DNA of 64,000 nt. Source: Bacteroidota bacterium. Its GTDB lineage: Bacteria; Bacteroidota; Ignavibacteria; Kryptoniales; JAKASW01. Each line of letters begins with the position of its first letter. Position 1 is the stretch's first letter. The position numbers were made by a program, and so were the translations under genes. The stretch covers positions 62,001 through 126,000 of the forward strand of contig JAJZVO010000001.1 of the NCBI GenBank assembly GCA_021845665.1. Reading direction: 5' to 3'. The notes beneath the pieces are model-generated. The model was not told the DNA's origin. It saw only the letters and a program-made list of their open reading frames with translations, and did not search any database. Below, piece after piece: positions 8,823 through 61,143 of this stretch.

Positions 8823-9293
8823 CTATCGAGGCTCGGGTGGACTGATTGCGGCTTTCTCTCCGGATAGTATCTCGGACGACGGCATTGCCAGGAGCCAGCC
8901 GTAAATATTCGAGACATAGAGTGCCCCGCCTGGCACAAGTAACGACGACGGGCCGAAAGCTTCCCCGAGGTGTTTGTTCGCAACAAGATCGCCTTCTTCA
9001 TTGCAGGCGGAATCGGCACCTTCGAAAACTCCTTCTTCCATATAGTACTTCCCGTTGCGGCATGCAGAGCAAGAAGAACATTCACTACCGGCATTCCGCC
9101 ATCCCCGGTCTGAACGCTTGCCTGCTGTACCATGATGCTATTCGAATATGCGGGCGCGCAATCGCTCATGCCGGTGGCCACCAACTTTGGGAAAGTCATT
9201 CACCACGCGAGCTCCCCCGTTTTCTTATCCAGAACATAGAAATAGTTCGGGTGAGTAACGCTGGCATAAACGGGGACGAATAAGTTCCTGCGA
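8823..9293 (-). pseudogene. Remnant of a PQQ-type beta-propeller protein
   Basis: Three blocks of a PQQ/BamB-like propeller are legible in order. From about 9293: VPVYASVTHPNYFYVLDKK then TGELAW, followed by an in-frame TGA. The same frame then continues MSDCAPAYSNSIM and LLALHAATGSTIWKKEF down to about 9020. The frame then shifts by one to give NEEGDLVANKHLGEAFGPSS and GALYVSNIYGWLLAMPSS, and ends at 8823. The repeated pattern YVLDxxTGELxW / ALxAATGSTIWK is the propeller blade signature. No N-terminus or signal peptide is left. One stop, one frameshift and the missing 5' part make it a pseudogene. Confidence 0.75.
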
Positions 9294-9387: not shown

Positions 9388-10488
9388 TCAGTAAGCCAAT
9401 TCTGCCTTTAGTCTCGAGCGACAGTAGCTTTCGGCTATCAGCTTGTCGAGAGAGTCCTGCATAAAGAATAGCGAGGGGAGAAACGGTTCCGAAGCTCCAC
9501 CTGCCAACTTGGGGACGATGCGTTCGGCTAATCTGACGGCAACTTCGATATATCTGCCTGAGAATGCAACGGTATCGAATCCGCCCATCACGCCGATCGC
9601 TGCACCACAACTCAGAAGAAGTCTGTACTCTAAAAGATCCCTGGCACGTTCAAACTCTCTATCTCCACGGACTACATCTGCAATCGTGACATTCTTCCCG
9701 GTCAGAGCCGTTAAACCGCTCCTCCTGGAAAGCATCTCGTTTATTGTCTCTGGGCCCCATTTCTTCTTTTCCTCGAGGAGCATTATGATACCGGGATCAA
9801 TCTCCCCGCAGGTCGTGTTTCCTGGCAGACCTTCCAGTGGTGTGGACCCGCTCGAAACGGTGACCGGCTTCCCGTCACAAATTCCCGCCACTTCCGGAAT
9901 AGGCTCAAGACAAATCGAGAGTATCCTTCTCGCTTCGATTCCCTTTCGCCTTATTTTGCCGGCAAGGGCGCCGTGGAAAATGCCGTGATATCCGAATCTT
10001 CTTACATCTCCGAGCCCTTCGCCGTAATAGTCGGGAAGGTCCCCACCGATGGCATAGGTCCTTTCGCTGAGAGGCAGGTTAGCGAAAAACGCCGTCTCGA
10101 AAAAAAGCATTATCTCCGGCGTCGGAACGATTCGTTCCAGTGTCCTCAGCAATCTGACCGCAGGTGGAATATGAAGCGGCGACTGTACTGCAAGCGACTT
10201 GAGTTTCTCAAGCACGTCCCCGTCATATACCTGTGTTTTCTTGAACTCTTCCCCGCCATAAAGGAGGCGCACGGTAATCGCTACCGGGGAGTACTTGCTG
10301 ATGAGTTTGCGCAGTTCTTCCGATGTCAAACCTGCACCCCTAAAACGAATCTTCCCTGTCCATTCAACTCTGCAAGTTTCACCGGTCTTGCTGGAATCTC
10401 TCTCCGACTCTTCGGCGTCCGGAGTAAACGAGTACACGAAGTAATCTATGAAATAGCCTTCAGGAATTAAGACAATCAACCTGCTCAT
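9388..10488 (-). CDS. Degenerate acetate-kinase paralogue (ASKHA fold, probably not a normal kinase)
   Basis: A 366-residue protein with acetate/butyrate kinase features. FGYHGIFHGALAG matches the GFHGISH region, and STPLEGLPGN-TTCGEIDPG matches SPLQGLVMSTRCGDLDP. Compared with the upstream ackA it lacks the N-terminal NxGSSSxK phosphate motif (MSRLIVLIPEGYF instead). It has Glu for the catalytic Asp (FFETAF against VLDTAF) and Thr for the transition-state Arg (NTTCGE against STRCGD). The ATG at 10488 has GGAG nine bases upstream and lies 29 bases inside the end of ackA, so translation is coupled. It may act as a partner or regulator of AckA, or as a kinase for another acid; this is inference. 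Confidence 0.7.
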   Translation of the reverse strand: MSRLIVLIPEGYFIDYFVYSFTPDAEESERDSSKTGETCRVEWTGKIRFRGAGLTSEELRKLISKYSPVAITVRLLYGGEEFKKTQVYDGDVLEKLKSLAVQSPLHIPPAVRLLRTLERIVPTPEIMLFFETAFFANLPLSERTYAIGGDLPDYYGEGLGDVRRFGYHGIFHGALAGKIRRKGIEARRILSICLEPIPEVAGICDGKPVTVSSGSTPLEGLPGNTTCGEIDPGIIMLLEEKKKWGPETINEMLSRRSGLTALTGKNVTIADVVRGDREFERARDLLEYRLLLSCGAAIGVMGGFDTVAFSGRYIEVAVRLAERIVPKLAGGASEPFLPSLFFMQDSLDKLIAESYCRSRLKAELAY

Positions 10489-11722
10489 CGAGACATTCTC
10501 CTTTTTCAGATTCGGACAATCTACGTCCTTGTGAGACGAATCGTTCGTACGCGTTCTTAGCAATGGCCAGTTCTTCATTGGTCTTAACAACAATAATCCG
10601 CACCCGGCTATCCTTCGCCGATATGTCTGCCGGATAGTGCGAGATATTCCTGTTTTTCCACTCATCAAGCTTCACACCAAAAAAATCCAGGTTCCTGCAT
10701 ACCGCCTCCCGGACATAAGGCACAGATTCGCCGATTGTATCGGTGAATATTATGGCATGTGGGCAACCAACCACAGTCAAATACGCTCCTAAATATTTCC
10801 TTACCCGCCACAAGTAGACGTCAAGTGTCATCTGAGCTCTCTCGTCGTCAGTCTTGGTAGCTCGCGAAATTACATCCCTGATGTCCGATGAAAGCCCCGA
10901 TAAACCGAGTACACCGCTCTTCTTGTTGAGTAGATCGTTGACTTGCGAATAGTTTCCTCCGGAAAAGGCAATCAGCTTCAGGATAAGCGCCGGATCGAGA
11001 TCCCCGCATCTCGTGCTCATTACCAATCCCTGAAGCGGCGAGAACCCCATTGTGTTGTCCACCGACTTCCCGCCTACGACTGCACAGAGGCTCGCGCCTC
11101 CTGAACCAAGGTGACAGCTTACAACATTCAATTCTTCGAGCGGGATGTGTAAATACTCGGCGGTTTCTCCGGTAACGAATTGATGACTTATCCCATGGAA
11201 TCCATATTTCCTGATCCCAAGCTGATCCGCAACATCCGGCGGAATCGGATACGTATAAGCGTAGCTCGGTATTGTCGAGTGGAAGGCCGTATCGAGCACG
11301 ACTGCCTGCGGGATCTCCGGGTAAGCCCTGCGGCATTCCTCGATGATTTCCACGACTGGGGGGTTATGTATCGGTGCAAGCCCTTTGACCAATTCGAGTG
11401 ACTCAAAGTCGTCGTCCCTTATGATGGTGTTGGATCGAAACTCCATTCCACCCTGAACGAGACGGTGGGCGAAAATATCCGGAGAAGGTCCCGACTCACT
11501 CGCGAGCGCTTTCATCACTTCCGTAAAGGCTTCCTTGTAACTGTTTACGGAGATTCGCCGAATACTCTCACCCCTCGGGCCGCGATGAACTATTCGAGCT
11601 GACTCAGCGGTTCTGCCGCCGATTCTCTGTACTTCTCCTCCCAATATCTCTTCGCCGGAAGGCATGGAAATCATCCTGTATTTCAAAGAAGAACTTCCGC
11701 AATTCAAAACAAATATGTTCAT
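10460..11722 (-). CDS. ackA: Acetate kinase
   Basis: A 420-residue cytoplasmic enzyme that interconverts acetate + ATP and acetyl phosphate. All key motifs are present: FVLNCGSSSLK at the N-terminus, AHRLVQGG (substrate Arg), VLDTAFHSTIP (catalytic Asp), YGFHGISH, HLGSGGASLCAV (phosphate loop), STRCGDLDP (transition-state Arg) and TNEELAIA near the end. It is about 20 residues longer than typical because of a C-terminal tail rich in acidic residues. The tail coding region overlaps the start of the degenerate paralogue. The M20 gene lies 83 bases upstream on the same strand. No phosphotransacetylase gene is visible nearby. Confidence 0.95.
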   Translation of the reverse strand: MNIFVLNCGSSSLKYRMISMPSGEEILGGEVQRIGGRTAESARIVHRGPRGESIRRISVNSYKEAFTEVMKALASESGPSPDIFAHRLVQGGMEFRSNTIIRDDDFESLELVKGLAPIHNPPVVEIIEECRRAYPEIPQAVVLDTAFHSTIPSYAYTYPIPPDVADQLGIRKYGFHGISHQFVTGETAEYLHIPLEELNVVSCHLGSGGASLCAVVGGKSVDNTMGFSPLQGLVMSTRCGDLDPALILKLIAFSGGNYSQVNDLLNKKSGVLGLSGLSSDIRDVISRATKTDDERAQMTLDVYLWRVRKYLGAYLTVVGCPHAIIFTDTIGESVPYVREAVCRNLDFFGVKLDEWKNRNISHYPADISAKDSRVRIIVVKTNEELAIAKNAYERFVSQGRRLSESEKGECLDEQVDCLNS

Positions 11723-11749: not shown

Positions 11750-11812
11750 GCTTGCAATCCATTATTCCATGGTTCCATAATTCCAATACTCCATTATCCC
11801 ACATCTCATATT
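11750..11812. repeat. TCCATTATTCC-type word repeat
   Basis: Between ackA and the M20 gene stop there is a run of near-repeats of TTCCA: CCATTATTCCATGG, TTCCATAATTCC, AATACTCCATTATCCC, ATATTTCC. It is low-complexity, not coding, and reaches into the last codons of the M20 gene. It looks like one of several word-type dispersed repeats used in the gaps of this genome. Confidence 0.45.
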
Positions 11813-13035
11813 TCCAGATCAGCCGTCCAGCCGAACACGGGAACTCCGACAAGGCTGTGGACAATCGAAGTTGTTCCGAGAATGGCTTCCGTAATTTTAT
11901 CTGTCTCTACAAATTCATTTTCAGAATGAGCAGTCTCTTCGAGGCCTGGACCGTAACCGATCGTCGGTATATTAAAGCGCTTTGTCAGTATGGATCCCGC
12001 GGTACCCATTCCCAGGTGGGGAAGGTTCCATTTGCCCGGTTGGTTCTTGCAGCCGGCCGAAGTGAGAGCCTCCCTTGCCCGATCCATCAAAGAAGAAAAC
12101 GGATTCGTCTCCCATGCGTTGCTGAGGTATCGCACCTGTACCGTTTGTCCGCTCTGCAATTTCTGAGCCTCTTCCCTTACTTTGATATCGAATTTCAGAT
12201 TGTGTTCGAGTGAAACGTTCTGCAGACTGTAGTCGCGGATCCTTTCTGCAAGTTGCTCGGTGTCGTCGTCCGGAAAGAGCCTGCGGTTGAAGGTTATGGA
12301 GACATTTTGCGATTCGGTGGCAAACTTCGGCTTCTTCACCTTCATGAGTTCCATGTAGCCTGGGACCCCCTTCAGCTCGCTGGCGTTCAACAGATTCTGG
12401 AATACGACATTCGCAGCATCCTGCAGGAAATTGGGATTCGGTGAATCCATACCAATTTTAAATTCCACCCATCCGTCGTGCCCGTAGAAAAGGCCGAGCC
12501 CGGTCGGCTCGCCGAGTATTGCATAATCCACTTTGATCTTCATTTCCGCAAGTGTCTTGGAGATCAGATGCTGTACCCCGAGGCTTAATCCATTCTCTTC
12601 TGAAACGGTAGCGGCTACTATCAGCGTTCCTCGCAGCGGAAGCATAACCCGCTTCAGAAGGTAGCCTGCGTATATCTGTGCAGCCAGTCCGCCCTTGCAG
12701 TCGGAGCTTCCCACACCATGGAGCTTTCCACCTGTCAGCTCGCCCGAGTACGGAGGTAACTCCCACAAACCTTCCCCCTCGTTCGGAGCCACGGTGTCCA
12801 TGTGGCAGTTGAGCATCACGACCGGTGATGGATCGATTCCGTAAATTATGCCGAACACATTGCCAAAATCGTCCACGATCACTTTGTCGTAGCCCAACTG
12901 GTACATACGTTTTTCGACGAGCCTTGCGACGCCGTTCTCGCAGAGACTTTGGCTCGGTGTTCTGACGAGTTCGGACGCAAACTCCGCGGCCTGCTTGCCA
13001 AGGTAGTTCGCATGTTCTTTCAGAAGTGTGTACAT
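11806..13035 (-). CDS. M20-family metallo-deacylase/peptidase (ArgE/DapE type)
   Basis: A 409-residue cytoplasmic enzyme with the di-zinc M20 motifs in order: LNCHMDTVAPNE (His and Asp ligands), GVGSSDCKGG (bridging Asp), SEENGLSLG (general-base Glu pair), LGEPTGL (Glu ligand) and, near the end, EETAHSENEFV (His ligand). This layout fits acetylornithine deacetylase, succinyl-diaminopimelate desuccinylase and related amide hydrolases; the substrate is not decided by sequence. AAGGGA sits upstream of the ATG. It is the first gene of a likely operon with ackA and its paralogue, which would suit an enzyme releasing a short-chain acid. Confidence 0.88.
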   Translation of the reverse strand: MYTLLKEHANYLGKQAAEFASELVRTPSQSLCENGVARLVEKRMYQLGYDKVIVDDFGNVFGIIYGIDPSPVVMLNCHMDTVAPNEGEGLWELPPYSGELTGGKLHGVGSSDCKGGLAAQIYAGYLLKRVMLPLRGTLIVAATVSEENGLSLGVQHLISKTLAEMKIKVDYAILGEPTGLGLFYGHDGWVEFKIGMDSPNPNFLQDAANVVFQNLLNASELKGVPGYMELMKVKKPKFATESQNVSITFNRRLFPDDDTEQLAERIRDYSLQNVSLEHNLKFDIKVREEAQKLQSGQTVQVRYLSNAWETNPFSSLMDRAREALTSAGCKNQPGKWNLPHLGMGTAGSILTKRFNIPTIGYGPGLEETAHSENEFVETDKITEAILGTTSIVHSLVGVPVFGWTADLEI

Positions 13036-13150: not shown

Positions 13151-13181
13151 ATTTTGCAATGGTTGTATTGCAAAGCAAAAT
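13151..13181. promoter_or_regulatory. Inverted repeat, candidate activator site
   Basis: Arms TTTGCAAT (13153-13160) and ATTGCAAA (13167-13174) are perfect complements around GGTTGT. An outer pair ATTTTGC / GCAAAAT (13151-13157, 13175-13181) is nested around them. It lies about 85 bp upstream of the sigma-54-like promoter of the M20 operon and about 62 bp before the ATG of the sigma-54 activator, where an enhancer or autoregulatory site would be expected. Confidence 0.5.
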
Positions 13182-13242: not shown

Positions 13243-14886
13243 ATGAAAGCAGAAGATCTAAGGCTAGACGAGTTAGTAAACTTCTCAGAAGGAGCATTGA
13301 CGCCTCGCGGAAGAGAGGTTGTGCTTCACAGCCTGCACGCGTTCGCGCAAATCAGGAAAGACCTTATCGATACGGCCGGTCTCGAACATGCGAGAAGCAT
13401 TCTTTCGAGGTTCGGATATTTCCAGGGACAGGCTGATGCCTCCGACCTCATGAATAACTTCAAGTGGGACGACAAGGTAGAGCTGATACGAGCTGGATGC
13501 AAACTTCATTCTCTGGAAGGCATCTCGAGAGACATCATAAACAGCGTGGAACACAATCCGGGATCTCAGCGATTCCGGATGGAGATAAGCTGGTACGATT
13601 CAAAGGAAGCTCAAGAACATCTTTACACAATCGGCAGCGCAGCGGAACCCATCTGCTGGATACTTACCGGCTACTTCACAGGTTTCGTTTCGCTCAGCCT
13701 CGGCATCGACGTCTATTTTATCGAACAATCATGCAAGGCGCAGGGGGAGAAAGTTTGTCATGCTGTCGGAAAAGACCTGGCTTCGTGGGGCAGTGAGATC
13801 AAGCCGTATGTCGACTACTTCAAGACACATGACATAAAACTCAGGATCGAAAAACTTACCGATCAGCTTAGACAGAAATCTTCCCTGCTGAGGAAATACG
13901 AGAAGGAGATCGCTGCACTCGGGACCGCGGCAAAGCCGTCATTCATTGAGATACACAGCAAGGCTTACAAACAGGTCCTTTTTGTAGCCAACAAAGTGGC
14001 GCGATTCGATTCCACTGTTCTCATAACCGGTGAAACCGGTGCAGGAAAAGAAGTCCTGGCAAAATACATCCACCAGCTATCGCCGCGCTCGAAACAAACT
14101 TTCGTGGCGGTGAACTGCGGGGCTCTCCCCGAGTCTCTTCTCGAAAGTGAATTGTTCGGACATAAAGCCGGGTCCTTCACCGGTGCGGTAAAAGACAGAG
14201 TTGGCTTGTTCGAGAAAGCCGACAAAGGCACGATTTTCCTCGATGAGATAGGCGACATAAGCGAGGCGATGCAGCTGAAGATACTTAGAGTGCTTCAGGA
14301 GCGTGAGATCATGCGCGTTGGGGAAAGTACGGCAAGAAAAGTCGATATCAGGATAATCGCCGCCACAAACAAAGACCTCCAGGACATGATCGCACACGGC
14401 AGGTTCCGGGAAGACCTATACTACAGGCTTAGCGTCATGGAGCTAAGGGTCCCCGCCCTGCGGGAACGCAAGGAGGACATACTTCCTCTTACCCGATTCT
14501 TCATAGACAGGATGTCCAGGAAACTCCATATCAGGAACCTGCACATCGACTCGTCGTGCATCGACTACCTTCAGGATTATGGTTGGCCCGGAAACGTGAG
14601 AGAATTGGAAAATGTGATCGAACGCGCTGCGATACTTAGTTCGGACGGGAATATTCTCCCTCAGCACCTGCCCCCTCCTTTGGTCAACACGAGTAAGAAA
14701 TCTTTCGACGCAGTCCTTCACGCCAATCCGTCCCTCGACGACATGGAGCAGGCCTACATCGAACGGATTCTGAATCTCACAGGAGGAAACAAGTCTAAGG
14801 CTGCGCGCATTCTCCGCATAGACGTTTCGACACTATGGAGAAAGCTCAAGTCGGATTCCGGGCAACATCGAAAAAGCAACACTTGA
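13243..14886 (+). CDS. Sigma-54-dependent activator with XylR-N and V4R sensory domains
   Basis: A 547-residue enhancer-binding protein. Residues 5-95 match the XylR/DmpR N-terminal activator region (LRLDELVNFSEG...RFGYFQGQADA). Residues about 110-180 are a V4R domain with the paired Cys of EQSCKAQGEKVC (164, 172). A coiled-coil B-linker lies at about 195-228. The AAA+ domain has Walker A GETGAGKE (263-270), a GSFTGA loop (310-315; the canonical form is GAFTGA) and Walker B TIFLDE (330-335). A Fis-type helix-turn-helix closes the protein (GGNKSKAARILRIDVSTLWRKL). V4R proteins of this class are usually switched by a small ligand bound at the N-terminus. Likely targets are the divergent M20-ackA operon and perhaps the pilin-like cassettes, whose leaders carry similar promoters. 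Confidence 0.93.
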   Translation: MKAEDLRLDELVNFSEGALTPRGREVVLHSLHAFAQIRKDLIDTAGLEHARSILSRFGYFQGQADASDLMNNFKWDDKVELIRAGCKLHSLEGISRDIINSVEHNPGSQRFRMEISWYDSKEAQEHLYTIGSAAEPICWILTGYFTGFVSLSLGIDVYFIEQSCKAQGEKVCHAVGKDLASWGSEIKPYVDYFKTHDIKLRIEKLTDQLRQKSSLLRKYEKEIAALGTAAKPSFIEIHSKAYKQVLFVANKVARFDSTVLITGETGAGKEVLAKYIHQLSPRSKQTFVAVNCGALPESLLESELFGHKAGSFTGAVKDRVGLFEKADKGTIFLDEIGDISEAMQLKILRVLQEREIMRVGESTARKVDIRIIAATNKDLQDMIAHGRFREDLYYRLSVMELRVPALRERKEDILPLTRFFIDRMSRKLHIRNLHIDSSCIDYLQDYGWPGNVRELENVIERAAILSSDGNILPQHLPPPLVNTSKKSFDAVLHANPSLDDMEQAYIERILNLTGGNKSKAARILRIDVSTLWRKLKSDSGQHRKSNT

Positions 14887-14978: not shown

Positions 14979-16358
14979 TCAATGGTACACGATTTTCGGT
15001 GTCTCCTCATGCCATGTGACAATTCCAAAATTCCCGGTGTAGGGGAACGAAGGAGGTGCTGAAGTGGCCAGCCGCGGATCATACACATAGTTCTTGTGGT
15101 ATCCTGTTTTTATGACAGCGTTTCCGTTCGCATCAGTGGTGAACGTTCCGACCGGCCCACGGATATTGTTTGCAACAGAACCATACAAATTGATTTTATC
15201 GTATGGCCCGTTCTTGTCATAACCCTGATATGTAAATGACCCGTTCTTTGCGTAGATAGCCCCCTGGATAGTTGCATCCTGCTGGGTCCCCGTCAATCTT
15301 ACGTTGTTATCGGCGACGAGGCCAAGCATATCGGTGCTGGCATTCTTCGTCGGGTCGGTATAATATTTGACATCCGCATCGATAAGCACGTTACCGCTGT
15401 TGCTGCTGCCGCAATTTCCCTGCTGGGATACTACCGTCAACTTGCCCTGCAAGGTCCCCTGGACATGAGCGTCTCCATTAACAACTGCCACAACTCCGTT
15501 GGGTGCAAACGTACTCAAAGGGACTGTCTGACTTGGCGTAGTACTGGTCACGGTTACAGTTACCGTCCTTGTTCTTATGGTCCCCCAAAAAGTCTGATAT
15601 GTTTCAGTGTAGCTCGAATCGTGCTTCCCCGTCGTATAGTAGGTTACATTTCCTCCGCTGGCGTCCGACCCGAAAGTCATGTAGAGATCGTACGTACTGC
15701 TCGGATCTGTGTTGGGATTGGTAAATGTTGCATTGGGGCCTGCGGCGTTGGCAGTCGGCAGCACACTCGCCATCATATTGTTCGGCCCACCGGTCACGAG
15801 ACCTCCGAGAAACTTCGGCTTGTTGTTGCCATTAGGGTCGTACACGACTCCCCCGCCGGTACGTACCTGGCCGTTAAAAACCGGCTTGCCCGAAATATTA
15901 AGTACGTCGTTGGTATACAATGGACCTGTCACGACGTCACCGGTTGTCCACCAGATACCGTTCTCATCGTTGGAGTAGAATTGCCACTGTGAGTATTGTC
16001 TCATGGTAAGGACGACATCGACCTCATCCGTGTAATCAGCCGCGGCGTCGCTGTAGGTGCCGATTGAACGGAGAACACATCCGCTGCCACTTCCCACCAC
16101 CATAGGAGTGACCTTGACTTCATAGCTTCCGCTTGCCAGTTTTCCCTTCAAATCCAGATTGGTGGTAGCGGTATTCACGAACAGCGAATCGCAGCCTATA
16201 TTTGCACCGGCACAAGCCACGTTGTACACGTTAGCCTGACCGTAGTACGCAGACGCAGTCTCCACGCCTTGCGTTGCCTCCTTGTTCCAGTATCTCCCGG
16301 CAAACGCAAAAGCCATCGCGAAGCCTAGTATCACAACCAAAGTCCCATTGCCGACCAT
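14979..16358 (-). CDS. PilX-like anchored surface protein, cassette 1 (459 aa)
   Basis: The N-terminus is a single hydrophobic helix (GTLVVILGFAMAFAFAGRYW) directly after MVGN, with no basic leader. A Tyr-rich segment (ETASAYYGQANVYNVACAGA) follows, then a long Gly/Thr/Asn-rich beta region. Phrases such as PNGVVAVVNGDAHVQG, GNVLIDADVKYYTD and DMLGLVADNNV suggest a right-handed beta-helix. The end has GYHKNYVYDPRL and PPSFPYTG. It is clearly paralogous to the 414-residue product at 20395-21639 throughout. GGAGG is well placed before the ATG, and the PilW-like gene ends 10 bases upstream. Probably anchored in the inner membrane or assembled into a pilus-like structure; it may be a DUF4900-type protein, which I cannot verify here. 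Confidence 0.7.
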   Translation of the reverse strand: MVGNGTLVVILGFAMAFAFAGRYWNKEATQGVETASAYYGQANVYNVACAGANIGCDSLFVNTATTNLDLKGKLASGSYEVKVTPMVVGSGSGCVLRSIGTYSDAAADYTDEVDVVLTMRQYSQWQFYSNDENGIWWTTGDVVTGPLYTNDVLNISGKPVFNGQVRTGGGVVYDPNGNNKPKFLGGLVTGGPNNMMASVLPTANAAGPNATFTNPNTDPSSTYDLYMTFGSDASGGNVTYYTTGKHDSSYTETYQTFWGTIRTRTVTVTVTSTTPSQTVPLSTFAPNGVVAVVNGDAHVQGTLQGKLTVVSQQGNCGSSNSGNVLIDADVKYYTDPTKNASTDMLGLVADNNVRLTGTQQDATIQGAIYAKNGSFTYQGYDKNGPYDKINLYGSVANNIRGPVGTFTTDANGNAVIKTGYHKNYVYDPRLATSAPPSFPYTGNFGIVTWHEETPKIVYH

Positions 16359-16368
16359 GATATGCCTC

Positions 16369-16983
16369 CTACCTGTTATTCAAGTTCTTACTTACGAGTC
16401 TCGTTTGCATCCAGGAAGAAAAGATCTGCTTGTTTGTTGTGTCGGCGTAAGCCGCCACTGGTTCAAGCCTGAGCTCCACTCTAATAAGCTGAACGCTCGA
16501 TGGATCAGAAAAGGGCGTCTTAACGGTGTCTCCAATCGCATCGAAATAAGTGAGGTGGAATCTGGTCACTCCGAGATTCGAGCTGTATGCTTTCGTGGTT
16601 CCGTCTATTGTAGTAGTCCTTGTCAACATGCGAACGTTAGGATTAGGGCATCCCGGGATGCGGGTAGTATCGAGTGACCACTGAACTGTATCCATCACTC
16701 CGTCGTCATTAAGATCCGCCAGAAATGCTATCGAGTTCGTATCACCCGAAACGATATAATCGCTCGAAGGGGTCGTATTTGTGAAGCTGTTACAGTACCC
16801 TACCAGCCGGAAATCCCATTCAAGGTTCTCTACGACGGAGGTCATGTTCTCCTGCACGGTGAGCGCAGTCTGCGCTGCGTAAGTGTTGCTGGATGCTCTC
16901 TCATTCATCGAAAGTGCCGTAAGGAGCAGCAAGCTGCTCACAACTATTGAACTAATCAGATCTAGTAGCGTCAGGCTCCCCAT
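16369..16983 (-). CDS. PilW-like anchored protein, cassette 1 (204 aa)
   Basis: I place the start at the ATG at 16983 (MGSLTLLDLISS) because GGAGG is eight bases upstream; a longer frame is open but lacks a site. One hydrophobic helix (LISSIVVSSLLLLTAL) is followed by NENLEWDFRLVGYC-type sequence (VVENLEWDFRLVGYC), which recalls the DIRMAGY motif of PilW minor pilins. It then has short beta-rich segments (SIAFLADLNDDGVMDTVQW). The Asp at residue 8, inside the helix, is shared with the cassette 3 protein and aligns with Asp6 of the cassette 2 protein. The prepilin Gly-Phe-x3-Glu site is absent. Two bases separate it from the upstream PilV-like gene. Confidence 0.7.
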   Translation of the reverse strand: MGSLTLLDLISSIVVSSLLLLTALSMNERASSNTYAAQTALTVQENMTSVVENLEWDFRLVGYCNSFTNTTPSSDYIVSGDTNSIAFLADLNDDGVMDTVQWSLDTTRIPGCPNPNVRMLTRTTTIDGTTKAYSSNLGVTRFHLTYFDAIGDTVKTPFSDPSSVQLIRVELRLEPVAAYADTTNKQIFSSWMQTRLVSKNLNNR

Positions 16984-16985
16984 TG

Positions 16986-17507
16986 TCAGATCCTCCCGAC
17001 CCTGCCGAAGAACCAATACCCGAACACCGCCTGCATAAATAGTGTATCTGGCAAATCCTTGTTCCAGACCCAGATGTCAAGCCTTTTCAGCCTGGTTCTT
17101 GTCGCGGAGTTAACGTTCAGATCCGAATAATCGCCTACGTAAGACACTTTCGTGCGCACGAAGTACGTCCCTGTGCCGAGTACATCGGTTTCGAGCCGAC
17201 CTGCATTGTTCAGCCCGTTATAATCATCAAGGTCGTCAAGATCGGTCGGGTTATTGTTCTCCTGGCCAAGTGAATCCGGAGCCGTGAACATGGTAATCCC
17301 AGGCGCCGCACCGCCGACAGTGGCCTGATCGAAAGGCAAGTTGCTTGCCTCCTGTATCATCGATGTGGCGAGCGAAACCGCGTCGATCTGACAATTCGTT
17401 CTCACGAGCGTATACTGAGTTTCATTAATGCCGCGGTTTGTACCCAGGATAACAGTACCCAATAGAAGCATTGCAGCAATAGTCATTAGGATTTGCCCAG
17501 TCCCCAT
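16986..17507 (-). CDS. PilV-like anchored protein, cassette 1 (173 aa)
   Basis: Starts MGTGQILMTIAAMLLLGTVILGTNRGINET: a hydrophobic helix immediately after Met-Gly-Thr-Gly, with no charged leader and no Glu at +5. The C-terminal part has an Asp/Asn-rich loop with GLNNAGRLETDVLGTGTYFV and ends in KRLDIWVWNKDLPDTLFMQ. The cassette 3 protein has the same end pattern (KRLDVWIWNNDVPDTVKM), and so, less closely, does cassette 2. The order PilV-, PilW-, PilX-like equals that of the minor-pilin operon of Pseudomonas. Its ATG overlaps the TGA of a small upstream frame as TGATG. Confidence 0.68.
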   Translation of the reverse strand: MGTGQILMTIAAMLLLGTVILGTNRGINETQYTLVRTNCQIDAVSLATSMIQEASNLPFDQATVGGAAPGITMFTAPDSLGQENNNPTDLDDLDDYNGLNNAGRLETDVLGTGTYFVRTKVSYVGDYSDLNVNSATRTRLKRLDIWVWNKDLPDTLFMQAVFGYWFFGRVGRI

Positions 17508-17707
17508 CAATTCATCTCCATTCTTTGGCTAGCCCCTCCCTCTACAGGGAAAATCTTCTTTAGTTTTGTTGTCCAGTGTCCCCATTTCTCAACAGGCAAC
17601 GCTCTACAATCCAGAACTACATGGCGGACTTCCCCGTCAAATGGATCACGCAGGTTGTGATTCTTTCTGCCCGCTTTACCGAAGTATTTGTCTGAACCTC
17701 GGTTCAT
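17507..17707 (-). CDS. Small protein of unknown function ahead of cassette 1 (66 aa)
   Basis: ATG at 17707 with GGAAGGGCA in front. It encodes a basic 66-residue protein (MNRGSDKYFGKAGRKN..., ending GGASQRMEMN) with no membrane segment. Its stop overlaps the start of the PilV-like gene as TGATG, a usual sign of translational coupling. A sigma-54-like promoter lies 73 bases upstream of this ATG, about the same distance as in cassette 2. I recognise no family; it could also be leader sequence. Confidence 0.4.
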   Translation of the reverse strand: MNRGSDKYFGKAGRKNHNLRDPFDGEVRHVVLDCRALPVEKWGHWTTKLKKIFPVEGGASQRMEMN

Positions 17708-17779
17708 TGCCCTTCCCACGACTCGTTTTAATCAAGTAGAGTTGTACTCGCAAAAATATATCGGGAGCCGATATGGGAT

Positions 17780-17794
17780 GCAACCGCTCAGCCG
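17780..17794 (-). promoter_or_regulatory. Candidate sigma-54 promoter, cassette 1
   Basis: Minus strand CGGCTG-AGCGG-TTGC: exact GG-N10-GC spacing, perfect TTGC at -12, weaker -24 (CGGCTG against TGGCAC). It lies 73 bases before the small gene at 17707 and 273 bases before the PilV-like start. Confidence 0.38.
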
Positions 17795-17871
17795 AGCTTT
17801 GTGTCCTGGATCAAAGCAAAACCGAAAGGTTGGATTGTGTGGGAACTTGTGAAGCCGGTGCAAAGGGGGGC

Positions 17872-17904
17872 GCTGCTCGAAAGATAAATCTATGATCGAG
17901 CAGC
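17872..17904 (-). terminator. Hairpin after cassette 2
   Basis: Nine-base perfect arms GCTGCTCGA / TCGAGCAGC around a 15-base loop, 14 bases past the stop of the PilX-like gene of cassette 2. No U-tract follows (the minus strand goes on GCCCCCC), so it may block decay or act with Rho rather than terminate alone. Confidence 0.45.
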
Positions 17905-17917
17905 TGGTCCCAAAATA

Positions 17918-18958
17918 TTATTGCCACCAGTCCATGATGAGGTACTTACCAACTGTCTTGTCCTGCACGTTTTGAATTGCCGCACTGCTGTAGCGGACAA
18001 GTGCGCTACCTTGCTGGCTGTAACTGGCGTTCTCTCCTGCCACTACCACCCCGCCATAGATAGCAGAGGCCCCTTCCTGGGTATAAGAAGATGTCGAGGA
18101 TGCGGAGATTGTAGTTGTCCCGTAGACAATAACAAGCCCGTGGAATGTAAATTGGCCGGAGATGTTCAACGCCCCGTCCACGATCAGTATTCCGGAGCCG
18201 GTGACCGGTCCCGTTATGTGCGTGTCACCTGTGAAATAAGTTATCTGCGGTGCCAAATCGGTACCGAGCGTGCCGGAGCTGAAAGTCTCCCCGCTGTAAA
18301 CTGTGGCGAGTCGAATCATCGCGTTGGCAAACGTTGTATAGTTCGCTGTGCCTGACACCCTCATCGTATCTGGCACCATGCCTCCCTTACCGAAAACGTT
18401 ATCATCCACCGAAATGTTTGACGATGGAGTCGCCGAGTTAATTGCAACTCCGGCGACAGAGTCCGGAGCAGGCGAGCCATTTATCACATTCGTGTCGATA
18501 CCGCTCGTCGTCGCGTGTCCCCCAATCTCGATTGAGACAGACTTGCCGGCCGACATGGATACGGCACCAGGAGGCGTCGGTATCTGAAGTGGAACCGGGT
18601 ATAGTTTATTCATAATCACATCGCTATCTCCGTCAAAGACCCCGACGCTTGTCATCATGAGAGTATCCAGGGCCTGACCGGCCAGTGTATCGTAAACCCC
18701 GGTGATGGAATCGATCCGAACCGTCGCGCTTCCCTGAAGTAATGGATCGATCGTGTACGTTCCCCTCATGGTAGGGTCCTCGTTCAACTTCCGGATAAAG
18801 ATTTCAGCCGCGCTCGATGCGACGTCCTCGGCACGCGTTTCGCTGTAATAATTCGTGTAGTTATTGACTGCCGACGTCGCTCGCCTGTTCATATTGTAAC
18901 CTACTATCGAAAGCGAGAACAGCAGCGTGATTACTGCGATAATTGCGAATCTTCCCAT
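17918..18958 (-). CDS. PilX-like anchored protein, cassette 2 (346 aa)
   Basis: Starts MGRFAIIAVITLLFSLSIVGYNMNRR with GGAGG upstream. One N-terminal hydrophobic helix is followed by YTNYYSETRAEDVASSAAE, which resembles the segment after the helix in PilX-type minor pilins. The C-terminal half is beta-rich with GSGILIVDGALNISGQF, FHGLVIVYG and SIYGGVVVAG-type repeats (SAIYGGVVVAG). It is shorter and more divergent than the 459- and 414-residue homologues but occupies the same third place in its cassette. The protein ends KYLIMDWWQ. Confidence 0.7.
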   Translation of the reverse strand: MGRFAIIAVITLLFSLSIVGYNMNRRATSAVNNYTNYYSETRAEDVASSAAEIFIRKLNEDPTMRGTYTIDPLLQGSATVRIDSITGVYDTLAGQALDTLMMTSVGVFDGDSDVIMNKLYPVPLQIPTPPGAVSMSAGKSVSIEIGGHATTSGIDTNVINGSPAPDSVAGVAINSATPSSNISVDDNVFGKGGMVPDTMRVSGTANYTTFANAMIRLATVYSGETFSSGTLGTDLAPQITYFTGDTHITGPVTGSGILIVDGALNISGQFTFHGLVIVYGTTTISASSTSSYTQEGASAIYGGVVVAGENASYSQQGSALVRYSSAAIQNVQDKTVGKYLIMDWWQ

Positions 18959-18972
18959 TGCTTATCCTCCAA

Positions 18973-19563
18973 TCACATCAGGGTCCGAAGGTTCTTTGGG
19001 CTGATATATTCTTCCCAATATGCTCCCGCGTAGGTCGAATCAGACATGAGTTTATTGGGACTCTCCACCGAAACTGCAACTCTGATCGATTTAATTCTTG
19101 CAAGTATGCTCGGATTTGTCGAGTCTGCACCTGATATGTTTATCCTGGCTCCTGTACTATCGAAATACTGAAGGTTGAAGTATGTCTGTCCAAGTGTTGC
19201 ACCAGTAGGTAAACCATTGTTTACAGAGCGGTATAAGATCCTCATGTTCGGATTGAGGTCCGATCCCGACAGCGGGGAGCTAACCCAGTAGTGTACCGTG
19301 TCCGGATTCCCATCTTGTTCGAGGTCGGCGCGAAAGACGATGGCATTGGAGTCCGCCAGCAATATCGCAGGTGAAGCCCGATAACCGATTTTGTAAAAGT
19401 CATACGTAATTGTATTTGCGATTGCCGTGATGTTCGACTGCGTTATAACCGAGGCATTTGTATCTGACCCCGCATCGGACAAGGAAGCATTCAATTTCAA
19501 TACTGCCAGCATCACTAACCCAGCCATTATGATCGATCCCGCTGTATCTATCATTGTATCCAT
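18973..19563 (-). CDS. PilW-like anchored protein, cassette 2 (196 aa)
   Basis: Starts MDTMIDTAGSIIMAGLVMLAVLKLN, aligning its TMID with the TILD/TLLD of the other two PilW-like proteins. It keeps ITYDFYKIGYR, the counterpart of the DFRxxGYC motif, and the extracellular-looking NAIVFRADLEQDGNPDTVHYW. It lies 14 bases before the PilX-like start and 8 bases after the PilV-like stop. AGGGA precedes the ATG. No prepilin peptidase site is visible. Confidence 0.68.
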   Translation of the reverse strand: MDTMIDTAGSIIMAGLVMLAVLKLNASLSDAGSDTNASVITQSNITAIANTITYDFYKIGYRASPAILLADSNAIVFRADLEQDGNPDTVHYWVSSPLSGSDLNPNMRILYRSVNNGLPTGATLGQTYFNLQYFDSTGARINISGADSTNPSILARIKSIRVAVSVESPNKLMSDSTYAGAYWEEYISPKNLRTLM

Positions 19564-19571
19564 GGTCGTCC

Positions 19572-20081
19572 CTAGTTTTTGTACCTGTAAGACACGATAT
19601 CGGACAGTTCAAGTGTGTGAGTAGGAGTACTGATATACGGGTTCTCTACGGCTACGACAATTTTCTTGTAGAAAGTCTGGACCGTGCTGCTGTCTCCGTT
19701 TCCATCGACATAGTACACGCTGCATAACCTCTTGAAGTATCCGAGTCGAGGTGTCGACACTGAATCAACAAACCCGTTGTAGTCGCTGATATCGTCATAA
19801 GTCGTGTCGACTCCCGGCACGTCGCTGGCATCCGGTCCGAGTTGATCGGGTGGAGTAAATGCCGATGCGCTGTCTGTGGTCAGGGGGGGAAGGACGTTAT
19901 GGTCAAAGTATTTTATCGTAATCTCTTCAATCATCGCCTGGCCGATTGCCGTCCCGGTGATCATCGCTTCTGAGCCGTACACGGCACCAGTTTGGTTAAG
20001 CAAAAGCTGATTGGCAGATATGGTAACGCTCGCCAGGATGGTAAGTGCAAGCAGCGCCAACAGCATCTGTCCGGTACCCAT
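19572..20081 (-). CDS. PilV-like anchored protein, cassette 2 (169 aa)
   Basis: Starts MGTGQMLLALLALTILASVTISANQLLLNQ, again a helix right after MGTGQ. It has the Asp-rich segment YDDISDYNGFVDSVSTPRLGYF and ends in a short beta region. GAGGAGAATATAA precedes the ATG. It heads cassette 2, 71 bases from a good sigma-54-like promoter. Confidence 0.68.
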   Translation of the reverse strand: MGTGQMLLALLALTILASVTISANQLLLNQTGAVYGSEAMITGTAIGQAMIEEITIKYFDHNVLPPLTTDSASAFTPPDQLGPDASDVPGVDTTYDDISDYNGFVDSVSTPRLGYFKRLCSVYYVDGNGDSSTVQTFYKKIVVAVENPYISTPTHTLELSDIVSYRYKN

Positions 20082-20394
20082 TTATATTCTCCTCGATCAA
20101 TGGTTCTGTGCAACTGGGGAACAGTGACAACTCCTCATCCTACTTTATCGGGCAATATGTATGCCGGGCAGGAAGTTGCGATTCTTCGTGAAATGATAGT
20201 GGAATTCCGGAAAGATCGGAAATATTTACAGGCTACAGGTATTCTTTCCGCAGTACGCGAAAGGTCCGCGACAATTTCCAGTTCGTTTTGAAACTGCGCT
20301 CATGGAATCCCGGCGGCAACCAGGAAGCAAACACCACTCCAGGACGCGTGAATTCCATCTTTCTTGTGACGCTTATCTTTTCACCAGCGTCGGT
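20082..20394. other. Intergenic region between cassettes 3 and 2
   Basis: 313 bases holding the cassette 2 leader and candidate sigma-54 promoter. A bulged inverted repeat CTTTCCGC-AGTAC-GCGAAAG lies about 80 bases further upstream (near 20247) and could be an activator site, but it does not resemble the repeat at 13151. No gene or RNA family recognised. Confidence 0.35.
20152..20166 (-). promoter_or_regulatory. Candidate sigma-54 promoter, cassette 2
   Basis: Minus strand CGGCAT-ACATA-TTGC: perfect TTGC, exact GG-N10-GC spacing, four of six -24 positions. It is 71 bases upstream of the PilV-like start and shares CCGGCAT with the candidate before the M20 operon. Confidence 0.5.
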
Positions 20395-21639
20395 TCAACC
20401 GCGCCATGCAACTATCTGAAAGCCGGAAGCAGTCGGGAAGAAGGGGGGTGCCTCTGTATCGAATCGATTGTCATACCGGTAGTGCTTATGGTACCCGCTC
20501 TCCAACTGGTCGGTCGACGAATTAAATTGGCCCACGCCTCCTCTCTGATAGTTGGTAATTGACCCATAAAGATAAATACTTCCAAGGGGTCCGGCACTCA
20601 AATCGTTATATCCCTGGTATCCGAATGCCCCCGTCCTCGCAAAAATTCCCGCGTCGATGTGGACGTTTTGCATAGGTGGCGAGGTCTCGGAAATTGTGAC
20701 ATTGTTGTTCGCCACAAGACCGAGCATATCGTTGCTTGGGCCCGTTGACGGATCGTGCGCGTATGTTACATTGCCGTCGATGTAGATGTTCCCGTACTCG
20801 AGTCCCGAGCTCCCATCGGCAACTACAGTGGTTCTTCCGTTAACTACTCCCTGGACGTGCGCATTCCCTTTTGAAATGTAGATCACGCCGTTCGGTGCAA
20901 GAGTACTTAGAGGTACTGTCGAGTCCTGCGACATCGTGTTGTCCTTATACGTGACGGTCCCATCCGAATTGAATGTCAGGTAGACATCATACGGACCGCC
21001 TCCCGGATTCGAGAAGACTTTTCCACCCTGTGAAGCCGTCTGCAAAGTCGAAAGACTGTTGGGAAGATTTATACTTACTCCCGATTGGTATCCACCGTAG
21101 AAGTACGGGTGAGCGCTTCTGCTCGGCAATTTCGGATTCGTTCCAAGCCTCGTGGTAACCTTCCCGTAAAAGACCGGACTTCCTGATATGAAGAGTTTCG
21201 ACTCTGTGTGATATGGTCCCCACATAGTGTCGCCAGTGATCCAGTAAATGCCTGACTCTATCACCGAGAAGAAGGCATACTTGGTGAAGGAGTAGGGGCT
21301 CAACATCACCTTGACCGTATCATGCAGATCGTCGTAGCTCCCGACGGCGGTAATCATGGTATCGGTCACACCGAACTTATCGTATGCCGAGGTAGAAATA
21401 TGGTAAGACCCGCCGGAAAAATTTCCCGACATTGAGACGGCCGGTGTCCCCGGGTCCCTGAAGATTGTGTCGGCGGCGACGTTTGCGGCGCTGACCGCTA
21501 TATTATGAGCGACCGTCTCATTGTAATATTGGACGAAATTGTCAACAGCATCCGTACTCGTCCTCTCCCAATATCCGCTCGCCAGGGCGAATATAAGACT
21601 GAAGCCGAGTATCACTATGAGTGTGCCTCTGCCAACCAT
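20395..21639 (-). CDS. PilX-like anchored surface protein, cassette 3 (414 aa)
   Basis: Starts MVGRGTLIVILGFSLIFALA, nearly the same anchor as the cassette 1 protein. Shared blocks are GIYWITGDTMWGPYHTESKLF against GIWWTTGDVVTGPLYTND, LAPNGVIYISKGNAHVQG, GNIYIDGNVTYAHDPSTG, NDMLGLVANNNV and YHKHYRYDNRF. The rows of short Gly-turn strands suggest a beta-helix exposed outside the membrane. It ends GFQIVAWRG, 16 or so residues shorter than cassette 1. The PilW-like stop is 9 bases upstream. Confidence 0.7.
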   Translation of the reverse strand: MVGRGTLIVILGFSLIFALASGYWERTSTDAVDNFVQYYNETVAHNIAVSAANVAADTIFRDPGTPAVSMSGNFSGGSYHISTSAYDKFGVTDTMITAVGSYDDLHDTVKVMLSPYSFTKYAFFSVIESGIYWITGDTMWGPYHTESKLFISGSPVFYGKVTTRLGTNPKLPSRSAHPYFYGGYQSGVSINLPNSLSTLQTASQGGKVFSNPGGGPYDVYLTFNSDGTVTYKDNTMSQDSTVPLSTLAPNGVIYISKGNAHVQGVVNGRTTVVADGSSGLEYGNIYIDGNVTYAHDPSTGPSNDMLGLVANNNVTISETSPPMQNVHIDAGIFARTGAFGYQGYNDLSAGPLGSIYLYGSITNYQRGGVGQFNSSTDQLESGYHKHYRYDNRFDTEAPPFFPTASGFQIVAWRG

Positions 21640-21648
21640 ACTTGTACC

Positions 21649-22254
21649 CTACCTGTTCCTTAGATTGCGTGAAATCAACCGCGTTTGTCTCCATAATGCG
21701 AAGTCATGATCGTACGTAGTATCGTCATACGCCGCCGTCGGCTCTATTTTCAGAGTTATCTCGACCATCTGAACCTGCGACGGTGCGTAAATCGGCGTAG
21801 GAAGAGTCTGCCCGAACCCATCCAAATACTTGAGGCTAAACTGCACGACTCCAAGATTTGAGCCGACAGGCGGATCGCTGTCGATTTGCCTGTAAAGCAT
21901 CCTGACGTTTTTGTTTGCACATCCCGGTATTGGATTCGTCCCCAGAAAATACTTCACGGTGTCCAGTACGCCAGTATTATCCATGTCCGCCACAAACCAG
22001 ATATAACTTGAATTTCCTTTTACAATATACATGTCGGGATTCGGCTGCACATTCGGGTCAGCGCAGTATCCCATTCTCCTGAAATCATATTCCAGATTCT
22101 CAACTAGAGAAGTAAGATTCTGTTGGACGGTCAGATTTGTTTCCGAATAGTAAGTAGTCTTTACGGACTGTTCGTCCATATGCAATGCAGTAAGCAGGAG
22201 AAAACCGCTGATAAGCATCGAGCTGATTATGTCGAGAATTGTGCTGGAGCCCAT
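21649..22254 (-). CDS. PilW-like anchored protein, cassette 3 (201 aa)
   Basis: Starts MGSSTILDIISSMLISGFLLLTALHMDEQ, with GGAGGAGAAATC before the ATG. Carries LTSLVENLEYDFRRMGYC, the best match of the three to the PilW motif, then YIWFVADMDNTGVLDTVKYFLG and RQTRLISRNLRNR at the end. The cassette 1 protein ends almost identically (QTRLVSKNLNNR). Confidence 0.7.
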   Translation of the reverse strand: MGSSTILDIISSMLISGFLLLTALHMDEQSVKTTYYSETNLTVQQNLTSLVENLEYDFRRMGYCADPNVQPNPDMYIVKGNSSYIWFVADMDNTGVLDTVKYFLGTNPIPGCANKNVRMLYRQIDSDPPVGSNLGVVQFSLKYLDGFGQTLPTPIYAPSQVQMVEITLKIEPTAAYDDTTYDHDFALWRQTRLISRNLRNR

Positions 22255-59539: not shown

Positions 59540-60205
59540 CTATGCCTTTTCGATCCACCCATCTTTCAACCTTATGATCCTGTTTCCATACGCAGCGTTC
59601 GTTTCGGAGTGCGTTACCTGTATTATGGTCGTACCCTGGTTATTCAATTCCTTCAGGAGGTCCATGATTTCCTTGCCCTGTTCTGAATGCAGATTTCCCG
59701 TAGGTTCATCCGCCAAAATCAGCTTTGGCTCCGCGATCACCGCCCTCGCGATCGCCACGAGCTGCTGCTGTCCGCCGGAGAGCTGGTTTGGAAATAAGTC
59801 CTTCTTGGCAACGATGTTGAACTTGTCGAGCGCCTCCGCCACTCTTCCCTTTCTGTCGTTCCCATTCACCTTTTGGTAAAGGAGCGGCGTCTCAAGGTTT
59901 TCATAAACCGTCAGCTCATCGATCAGGTGATAACTCTGGAATACGAAACCGATATAAGTCTTGTGAAGTTCGGTCAGCTTCTTCTCGCTCATCTTGTGGA
60001 CGGGTTCATCGAGGAAATAATATTCGCCGTTCGACGGGGTATCCAGCATACCGATGATATTGAGAAGTGTTGTCTTGCCTGAGCCCGATGGTCCCATGAC
60101 GGAAACGAACTCGCCCGGTTTTACTTCGAGGTTGATGTTTCGTAGGACGTAGGTCTTGATGGCCCGGTTTTCGTAGTACTTTTCGATGGCTGATAGCTTT
60201 ATCAT
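59540..60205 (-). CDS. ABC transporter ATPase 2 (LolD/MacB type) with altered D-loop
   Basis: 221 residues; GAGGAAGAA precedes the ATG. Walker [10 protein letters not shown]-loop [13 protein letters not shown], signature [14 protein letters not shown] (Leu where Arg is usual), Walker [17 protein letters not shown] and H-loop QVTHSE. In the D-loop the usual Asp (NLDS) is His. The Glu after Walker B and the switch His are intact, so ATP hydrolysis is still possible. It should power one or more of the nine permeases from the cytoplasmic side. The 3' end overlaps repeat words. Confidence 0.95.
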
Positions 60206-60346
60206 TTCTTCCTCTTTTCAAGAAGGAGAAAGGAAACAGGAGGTAGGAGACAGGAATCACATGTTCCCTTGCTCCTTCACTTTCCTATCTCCTTTCTCCT
60301 GTCTGCCGAATCTCGCGCTTTGCGCTTTGCCCTCTGCGCTTTGCGC
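60206..60346. repeat. Purine/pyrimidine hairpin plus GCGCTTTGC words between the two ATPase genes
   Basis: AGGAGAAAGGAAACAGGAGG and TAGGAGACAGGA (60223-60254) can pair with TTTCCTATCTCCTTTCTCCT (60281-60300). After it comes CGCGCTTTGCGCTTTGCCCT up to the stop of ATPase 1. Confidence 0.55.
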
Positions 60347-61036
60347 TCACACGTGAAACTTCTCTTTATAGTTTTCGGTCACCACATGCCCATCGAAAAG
60401 ATGTATTATGCGATGAGCAAACTCCGAATCGTGCGGTGAGTGAGTGACCATAAGGATAGTTGTGCCCCCTTCGTTCAGTTGAGTCAGTATGTTCATCACC
60501 TCTTCTCCGTTGGCGGAATCCAGATTCCCGGTCGGTTCATCGGCAAGTATAAGTGCGGGCTTCGCGACAACCGCCCTGCTGACCGCCACGCGCTGCTGTT
60601 GGCCGCCCGAAAGCTGTTGCGGAAAATGATCCCTTCGATGCATTATCTGCATGCGTTCCAGCACCTCATCAACTATCTTCTTCCTCTCGGAAGCCGACAC
60701 CCCAAGGTAGAGCAGCGGCAGCTCGACGTTCTCGAAGACTGTCAGTTCATCGATCAGGTTGAAGCTCTGAAATACAAACCCGATGTTCCGCTTCCGGATG
60801 TTTGCGCGCTGCCGTTCCGTATATTTCGATACTTCCTCATTTAAGAAGTAGTATTCACCTTCGCTGGGGTTGTCAAGCATTCCGAGAAGATTAAGGAGCG
60901 TGGACTTGCCGCAACCTGACGGCCCCATTATTGCGACAAACTCTTTCTCCTTTATGTCGATGTTGACACTGTCGAGAGCCGTGGTTTCGACTTCTTCGGT
61001 GGTGTAAAGCTTCTTCAGGTTGACAGTTCGAATCAT
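60347..61036 (-). CDS. ABC transporter ATPase 1 (LolD/MacB type)
   Basis: 229 residues. All motifs are canonical: Walker [10 protein letters not shown]-loop [11 protein letters not shown], signature [14 protein letters not shown], Walker [17 protein letters not shown] with normal D-loop, H-loop [23 protein letters not shown] precedes the ATG. Second gene of the operon, 107 bases after the adaptor gene. Because its partner at 59540 has a changed D-loop, a mixed dimer with one strong and one weak site is conceivable. Confidence 0.96.
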
Positions 61037-61143
61037 AGGTTAATCCTTTCTTATTACGTGAAGACAGGAAACGGGAGAAAGGACACAACACAGCCGCATT
61101 CCTTTCTCCTGTCTGCTTCCTCCTTTCTCCCCACTATTGATCT
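61037..61143. repeat. Purine/pyrimidine hairpin repeat between adaptor and ATPase 1
   Basis: AGACAGGAAACGGGAGAAAG (61065-61084) against CTTTCTCCTGTCTGCTTCCT (61103-61122), third member of the family at 56889 and 60223. Confidence 0.5.

Follow-up and report, generated by a model that had tools for sequence, protein, structure and literature searches.

Why should a gene of the acetate kinase family be followed, with an overlap, by a paralogue that has lost the family's catalytic residues? This question is raised by two genes on the reverse strand of a 64,000-nucleotide stretch (hereafter the window) of contig JAJZVO010000001.1 from a bacterium of the Kryptoniales (Ignavibacteria, Bacteroidota). 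The first-pass annotation had described an acetate kinase gene and an overlapping paralogue, and had proposed for the second product either a role as pseudokinase partner or a new substrate. We refer to the two as genes A and B.

An overlapping gene pair with one altered member

The features of the locus are as follows.

10460..11722, reverse strand: gene A, acetate kinase-family protein of 420 aa with a PPi-ACK-like donor site (PF00871 match, motif alignment)
9388..10488, reverse strand: gene B, protein of 366 aa with the acetokinase fold, without catalytic or nucleotide motifs (PF00871, model, alignment)
10460..10488, reverse strand: overlap of A and B, 29 nt
10498..10502, reverse strand: AGGAG within A, 9 nt ahead of the ATG of B and likely its ribosome-binding site
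11096..11113, reverse strand: PHOSPHATE2 motif of A, HLGSGG, with an extra Gly and Asn211 changed to Ser
11009..11020, reverse strand: LOOP3 motif of A, MSTR, with Gly239 changed to Ser and Arg241 retained
10724..10747, reverse strand: ADENOSINE motif of A, FTDTIGES, with Asp 330, Thr 331 and Ser 335
11806..13035, reverse strand: M20 metallohydrolase, YgeY/ArgE/DapE-like, the conserved upstream gene at type I pairs
13153..13174: perfect dyad TTTGCAAT-N6-ATTGCAAA between the activator and M20 genes, possible operator of the activator
13243..14886, forward strand: divergent, conserved XylR_N/V4R sigma-54 activator

Both products match PF00871 (376.8 bits for A and 114.4 bits for B, with a cut-off of 22) and share 29% identity across 273 columns. 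The mechanical call for B begins at a TTG and runs to 426 aa; we took the ATG start because the homologues align from it, an ATG being present there in 9 of 10 and a TTG in that of genome G361. From this ATG the frame is open over 366 aa, uninterrupted as first described, and the coordinates bear out the 29-base overlap with the ackA-like gene. The distance between A and B ranges from -29 to +11 nt across the 10 intact pairs found in the class, and B is probably translated from the same message as A. The same genome carries an ordinary acetate kinase (C94) and another family member (C79), and C37 gives a short match.

Two types of pair were distinguished. Type I pairs, in 8 genomes of two families, show the gene order M20-A-B with the divergent XylR_N/V4R sigma-54 activator, and type II pairs (G008 and G361) have neither M20 nor activator genes nearby. 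Locus L028 proved to be an ordinary acetate kinase.

Residues are numbered here as in the Methanosarcina acetate kinase (MtACK). In the window's B protein, PHOSPHATE1 reads VLIPEGYFIDY as compared to VLNCGSSSLKY in A; the NxGSSSxK motif is missing, as had been claimed, and with it N7, S10, S12 and K14. The PHOSPHATE2 and ADENOSINE motifs are both absent as well, G239 is Asn, and the alignment agrees with the earlier assignment of Glu for the catalytic Asp (D148) and of Thr for Arg (R241). The 10 full-length B proteins have these changes in common: none retains PHOSPHATE1, Glu occupies position 148 in 9 (Asp in G361), and Arg 241 is absent throughout, being replaced by Thr in 8 and Gly in 2. 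On the acyl side the two types differ, type I proteins (n = 8) retaining R91 (8/8), P232 (8/8) and H180 (7/8) and type II proteins (n = 2) lacking R91, H123 and H180.

Modelled with AlphaFold (pLDDT 76.2, residues 145-162 and 214-234 being of low confidence), B shows the acetate kinase fold and superposes on 2iir with a Z of 26.8 and an rmsd of 3.9 over 324 residues. Together with the PF00871 score, this upholds the earlier statement that the fold is kept. Having lost catalytic and nucleotide residues while retaining the modelled fold, B would qualify as a pseudoenzyme.

Upkeep and distribution of gene B

A B profile of 8 rows, all from the window's genus, was searched against 391 genomes of the class. 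Among the matches listed, from which very divergent pairs may be missing, B was found in 11 genomes of three families: 8 of the 13 searched genomes of the window's genus, 2 that belong to a single genus of a second family, and 1 from a third family. Ten of these scored 427-613 bits, 8 of them high by construction as rows of the profile, and G361 scored 225 bits, where ordinary family members reach no more than 203; G361, G259 and G256 lie outside the profile. The identity of the G361 protein rests also on its 41% identity to the B of G008 and its adjacency to A.

An intact A-B pair with full-length open frames is present in 10 of the 11 carriers, and A and B occur together in 10 of the 391 genomes. 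G007 has the sole B without A, 5'-truncated and interrupted by a stop within the part that matched. At that locus (L034, 10369-11515) the activator is shortened and, next to it, M20, A and the beginning of B are gone; an assembly fault is possible there.

Selection was estimated by the Nei-Gojobori method between the window and G012, the other compared pairs being saturated or nearly so. For this single pair, dN/dS was 0.127 for B (dS 0.64), 0.068 for A (dS 0.55) and 0.061 for the M20 gene (dS 0.45), and dN of B was about twice that of A. From its recurrence in carriers and its dN/dS, B is conserved and under purifying selection. Maintenance of its frame, as the first-pass annotation had supposed, is thereby confirmed, and the random decay in relatives that it had named as contrary evidence was not observed in the 10 carriers with intact pairs.

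That B is merely a decaying duplicate has in its favour the lost motifs and the damaged G007 copy, but the full-length frames in carriers and the dN/dS value led us to reject it as a pseudogene, a reading to which we attach next to no probability. A real pseudogene lies directly downstream of B and offers a contrast to it: a PQQ/BamB-like propeller gene (8838-9271, reverse strand), broken over two frames and 5'-truncated, which is open in G003 (L030, 482 aa) and has a similar open frame in G012 (L029, 497 aa).

Purifying selection on B would also suit an enzyme that is active without A, on a new substrate or by a new reaction, and the whole fold together with R91, P232 and (in 7 of 8) H180 on the acyl side of type I proteins is in keeping with this. 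Against it stand the loss of three ASKHA nucleotide motifs and, in type II, of R91, H123 and H180 in addition, so that no catalytic set is common across B proteins; moreover all 10 intact B genes adjoin A. We regard an independently active B as unlikely. Of the two earlier proposals, the pseudokinase partner is the better supported, since strict linkage, nucleotide-motif loss and a retained fold suggest a structural or regulatory role for B in a heteromer.

Beyond the class, a sample of 395 genomes from the phylum yielded no recognisable B at 1e-57; the sole match outside the class at this threshold, G609 (200 bits), has ordinary motifs at its locus (L074) and was set aside as an ordinary kinase. 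With A as query at 1e-135, only G000 and G008 were matched among 326 phylum genomes. A tblastn search of plasmids with B returned 373 records, all below 60% identity, the best 10 of which comprised 9 annotated acetate/propionate family kinases and 1 unannotated record, and type II A returned 380 records, with 38-40% identity in the best 15. Relatives of A or B were not found in the viral_contigs collection.

The donor site of gene A and a possible kinship with EhACK

The catalytic core of A is complete. All 10 rows retain N7, S10, S12, R91, H123, D148, H180, R241 and E384 and, in the acyl pocket, V93, F179 and P232, with L122 varying (L/I/V). The AlphaFold model (pLDDT 79.2) matches 1g99 with a Z of 40.0 and an rmsd of 3.4 over 359 residues. 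The donor site is altered in all 10 rows, with S/T at 211 followed by an inserted Gly that extends the PHOSPHATE2 loop, Ser 239, Asp 330 and either Thr or Asp 331. The inserted Gly occurs in none of 41 ordinary family rows, and neither D at 330 nor a non-Gly residue at 331 in any of the 40 rows extending to the ADENOSINE motif; Ser 239 alone is not diagnostic, since the ordinary rows L038 and L039 share it. A DNA pattern for HLG[ST]GG[AS]S, searched in the 391 class genomes, was found in 10, each time inside A with B directly downstream, and a reversed control pattern gave 0 matches. The donor motifs of ATP-acetate kinases, HLGNG and GIGEN, are replaced in A by HLGSGG and TIGES and are lacking in B.

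A resembles ATP-dependent AckA in its fold, its catalytic residues and the greater part of its acyl pocket and differs from it in the donor-site loops, whereas B differs from AckA in its lost catalytic and nucleotide residues. The earlier naming of the first gene as acetate kinase therefore stands for family, fold and catalytic core and fails for a plain acetate kinase: judged by its sequence, A does not belong with the usual ATP acetate kinases, and its donor site is non-standard.

The closest known counterpart of this site is the PPi-dependent acetate kinase of Entamoeba histolytica (EhACK; 4H0O, EC 2.7.2.12), which shares with A the extra PHOSPHATE2 Gly, T/S for N211, G239S, Asp 330, a non-Gly residue at 331 and the catalytic residues. 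In phmmer alignments its donor sites read ACHLGTGGSS, MSTRCGDIDP and FTDQMGL, and it has T at position 14, where the two type II rows have T or I. Gln323-Met324 and Glu327 of EhACK are unmatched in A, which has T/D-I and S/T/H instead. Dang and Ingram-Smith (2017; PMC5517563) describe EhACK as restricted to PPi/Pi and found the additional Gly and the Asp nowhere but in the ACKs of Entamoeba and in a small number of related bacterial sequences. They also name four proteins from Anaerolineaceae, WP_075061087.1, WP_075074878.1, WP_062279690.1 and WP_062422928.1, and mention some of metagenomic origin, all with the extra Gly and Asp-Asp; the putative PPi-ACKs of Anaerolineaceae match type II A in the extended PHOSPHATE2 loop and the ADENOSINE Asp-Asp, also have Asp for Gln323, and differ from type I A, where the second Asp is Thr.

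Identity to EhACK is highest for the two type II A proteins (47.7% and 47.0%, the next best being 41.4%), and outside the motifs amounts to 44.1 and 42.1 as compared to 40.1 for the next. Type I A proteins, the window's type, reach 35-38% and are no closer than ordinary ACKs. Among solved structures matched by type II A, EhACK is best over the first 200 residues (158.7 vs 126.0 bits), third for the middle piece (97.2 vs 99.4 bits) and second for the last (66.5 vs 71.3 bits). For the window's A (P0002) it ranks 14th among PDB sequence matches and, for the model, 16th by fold (Z 35.6, the best being the 40.0 of 1g99).

Phylogenetic trees were built from 60 rows: 10 of A, EhACK and 49 ordinary ones, the latter made up of 38 of 41 earlier rows (3 partial ones dropped), 9 from the plasmid collection, MtACK and TmACK. 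Anaerolineaceae sequences were not included; PHOSPHATE2, LOOP3 and ADENOSINE columns were dropped and PHOSPHATE1 was retained. EhACK joined type II A with 100/99 support in this tree and in two thinned ones, one without A_G008 and one without type I, its position among the type II proteins being less certain (100/90, then 87/72). Constraining EhACK with the 49 ordinary rows cost 22.9 log units (AU p 0.004, in a test chosen after the tree had been seen). The branch uniting type I A, type II A and EhACK received 95/85 with 60 rows, 65/66 without A_G008 and 94/90 in a tree with B rows and motif columns, in which the B proteins formed one group (94/92). It is to be noted that the tree program issued a long-branch warning, with A_G008 and EhACK among the long branches. 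On this phylogeny, common descent with EhACK is indicated for type II A.

These motifs do not prove the donor, since EhACK residues introduced into E. coli or Methanosarcina ACK conferred no PPi use and, in the account of PMC5517563, residue exchanges left donor choice unexplained; its authors also consider that bacterial relatives might use neither ATP nor PPi. In MtACK, Asn211, Gly239 and Gly331 affect NTP use or rate, and the N211S and G331Q variants still use ATP with activity about 100- to 200-fold lower, as described in PMC4390882. A could accordingly still be an ATP-dependent acyl kinase of weak or altered preference, for which B rescues nucleotide binding or acts as specificity subunit, and the absence of the EhACK Gln-Met and Glu327 from A fits with this. 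On the other hand, according to PMC5517563 the extra PHOSPHATE2 Gly and Asp 330 were seen only in EhACK-like sequences, and EhACK groups with type II A. We consider retained ATP dependence rather improbable, though deserving of weight. The donor-site changes suggest that the unusual chemistry, which the first-pass annotation had sought in B as a new substrate, probably resides in A.

Operon context and a proposed function

The M20 hydrolase upstream of A has YgeY as its best NCBIfam match (181 bits, below the cut-off of 321). In the intergenic regions of type I pairs, 6 of 8 contain a dyad TTGCAAT-N7-TTGCAA, 14 nt start to start, and those of G002 and G011 one TTGCAA each; the dyad was found nowhere else in the 363 kb scanned. 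As three of the six, and another two, come from close relatives, they represent about three independent cases. Scanning for sigma-54 promoters gave no convincing site: in the window's intergenic region the best reaches 8/12, on the activator strand, and G003, G011, G259 and G256 yielded no candidate. A sigma-70 scan found 3 sites as compared to 3.5 in shuffles, and a terminator scan 7 as compared to 3.5 (sd 2.1).

The occurrence of H+-PPase, PPDK, PFK and PTA did not separate 5 carriers from 3 non-carriers, H+-PPase and PPDK being present in both alike, with PPDK fragmented in G361. Type II pairs are followed in two families by a gene resembling FolE2 (GTP cyclohydrolase IB), at L035 8056-8991 by Pfam match and at L077 4526-5020 by 57% identity; enzymes of the GTP cyclohydrolase IB class release formate. 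Beside the window's operon, positions 14979-22254 (reverse strand) hold repeated sets of small proteins, with what we take to be pilin-like starts and with relatives in L029 and L035. Further on, 34402-59451 (reverse strand) encodes some nine large membrane proteins in tandem, one of them divided between two ORFs, presumably permease-like of the FtsX/MacB type, beside which lie two ABC-ATPase-like ORFs and one HlyD-like ORF (59540-62397).

The divergent activator and the dyad shared between it and the operon would also suit a sensor, in which A/B binds a ligand or acetyl phosphate and feeds the activator without metabolic flux. Since A retains its catalytic residues and the two type II pairs have no activator nearby, we give this quite a low probability. 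On the reading we prefer, with confidence that falls somewhat short of even, A acts as an acyl kinase of PPi/Pi type and has B as its pseudoenzyme subunit, much as TsaD has TsaB. The analysis shows sequences, motifs, co-occurrence, gene order, selection and phylogeny, from which donor, complex, direction, physiological acid or substrate, and regulation go further as inferences. A, with a donor site remodelled like that of the Entamoeba enzyme, would probably use Pi/PPi in place of ADP/ATP when exchanging phosphate with acetyl phosphate or the phosphate of a comparable short acyl group. The non-catalytic B is most likely bound to A in a heteromer, as a subunit that sets the activity or stability of A, by analogy with TsaB for TsaD. 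The type I operon is probably inducible, with the XylR_N/V4R activator sensing a small ligand, and the M20 hydrolase may free an acid from an amide, with A/B handling the acyl phosphate.

In TsaD/TsaB of t6A synthesis, as described in PMC11648230, an enzyme of ASKHA fold forms a complex with a reduced paralogue, as proposed here for A and B. Its chemistry and subfamily are different, and the likeness is one of analogy only. The trypanosome AdoMetDC/prozyme and deoxyhypusine synthase pairs reportedly have a catalytically dead paralogue that activates its partner; they are eukaryotic and are not known to be acetokinase relatives.

In a stronger form of the proposal, the pair would be a bacterial heteromeric PPi-dependent acyl kinase whose EhACK-type subunit needs the pseudokinase, Entamoeba having taken the catalytic half alone; we hold this as doubtful. 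EhACK was studied without a partner, unlike A with its adjoining B, and was assayed as a single recombinant protein in the experiments of PMC4390882 and PMC5517563, from which it follows that B is not required in general.

As of 2017-2018, PPi-dependent acetate kinase had been demonstrated only in Entamoeba, according to statements in PMC5517563 and PMC5931981. Bacterial PPi-ACK-like proteins are already in print (2017), and with the Anaerolineaceae proteins of PMC5517563 the idea of a bacterial PPi-ACK is not new. The partner gene, the operon and type I appear to be new: our literature search found no partner protein reported for a PPi-type or other acetate kinase, and PMC5517563, in the sections consulted, describes no partner gene, the words "operon" and "neighbor" being absent from its main text. 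Should A and B form a complex, the result would be an acetate kinase that depends on a pseudoenzyme, for which that search found no description. The amoebal gene may have its source among relatives of type II A, and this bacterial group, with its EhACK-like donor changes and strictly linked paralogue, provides natural variants for testing PPi use.
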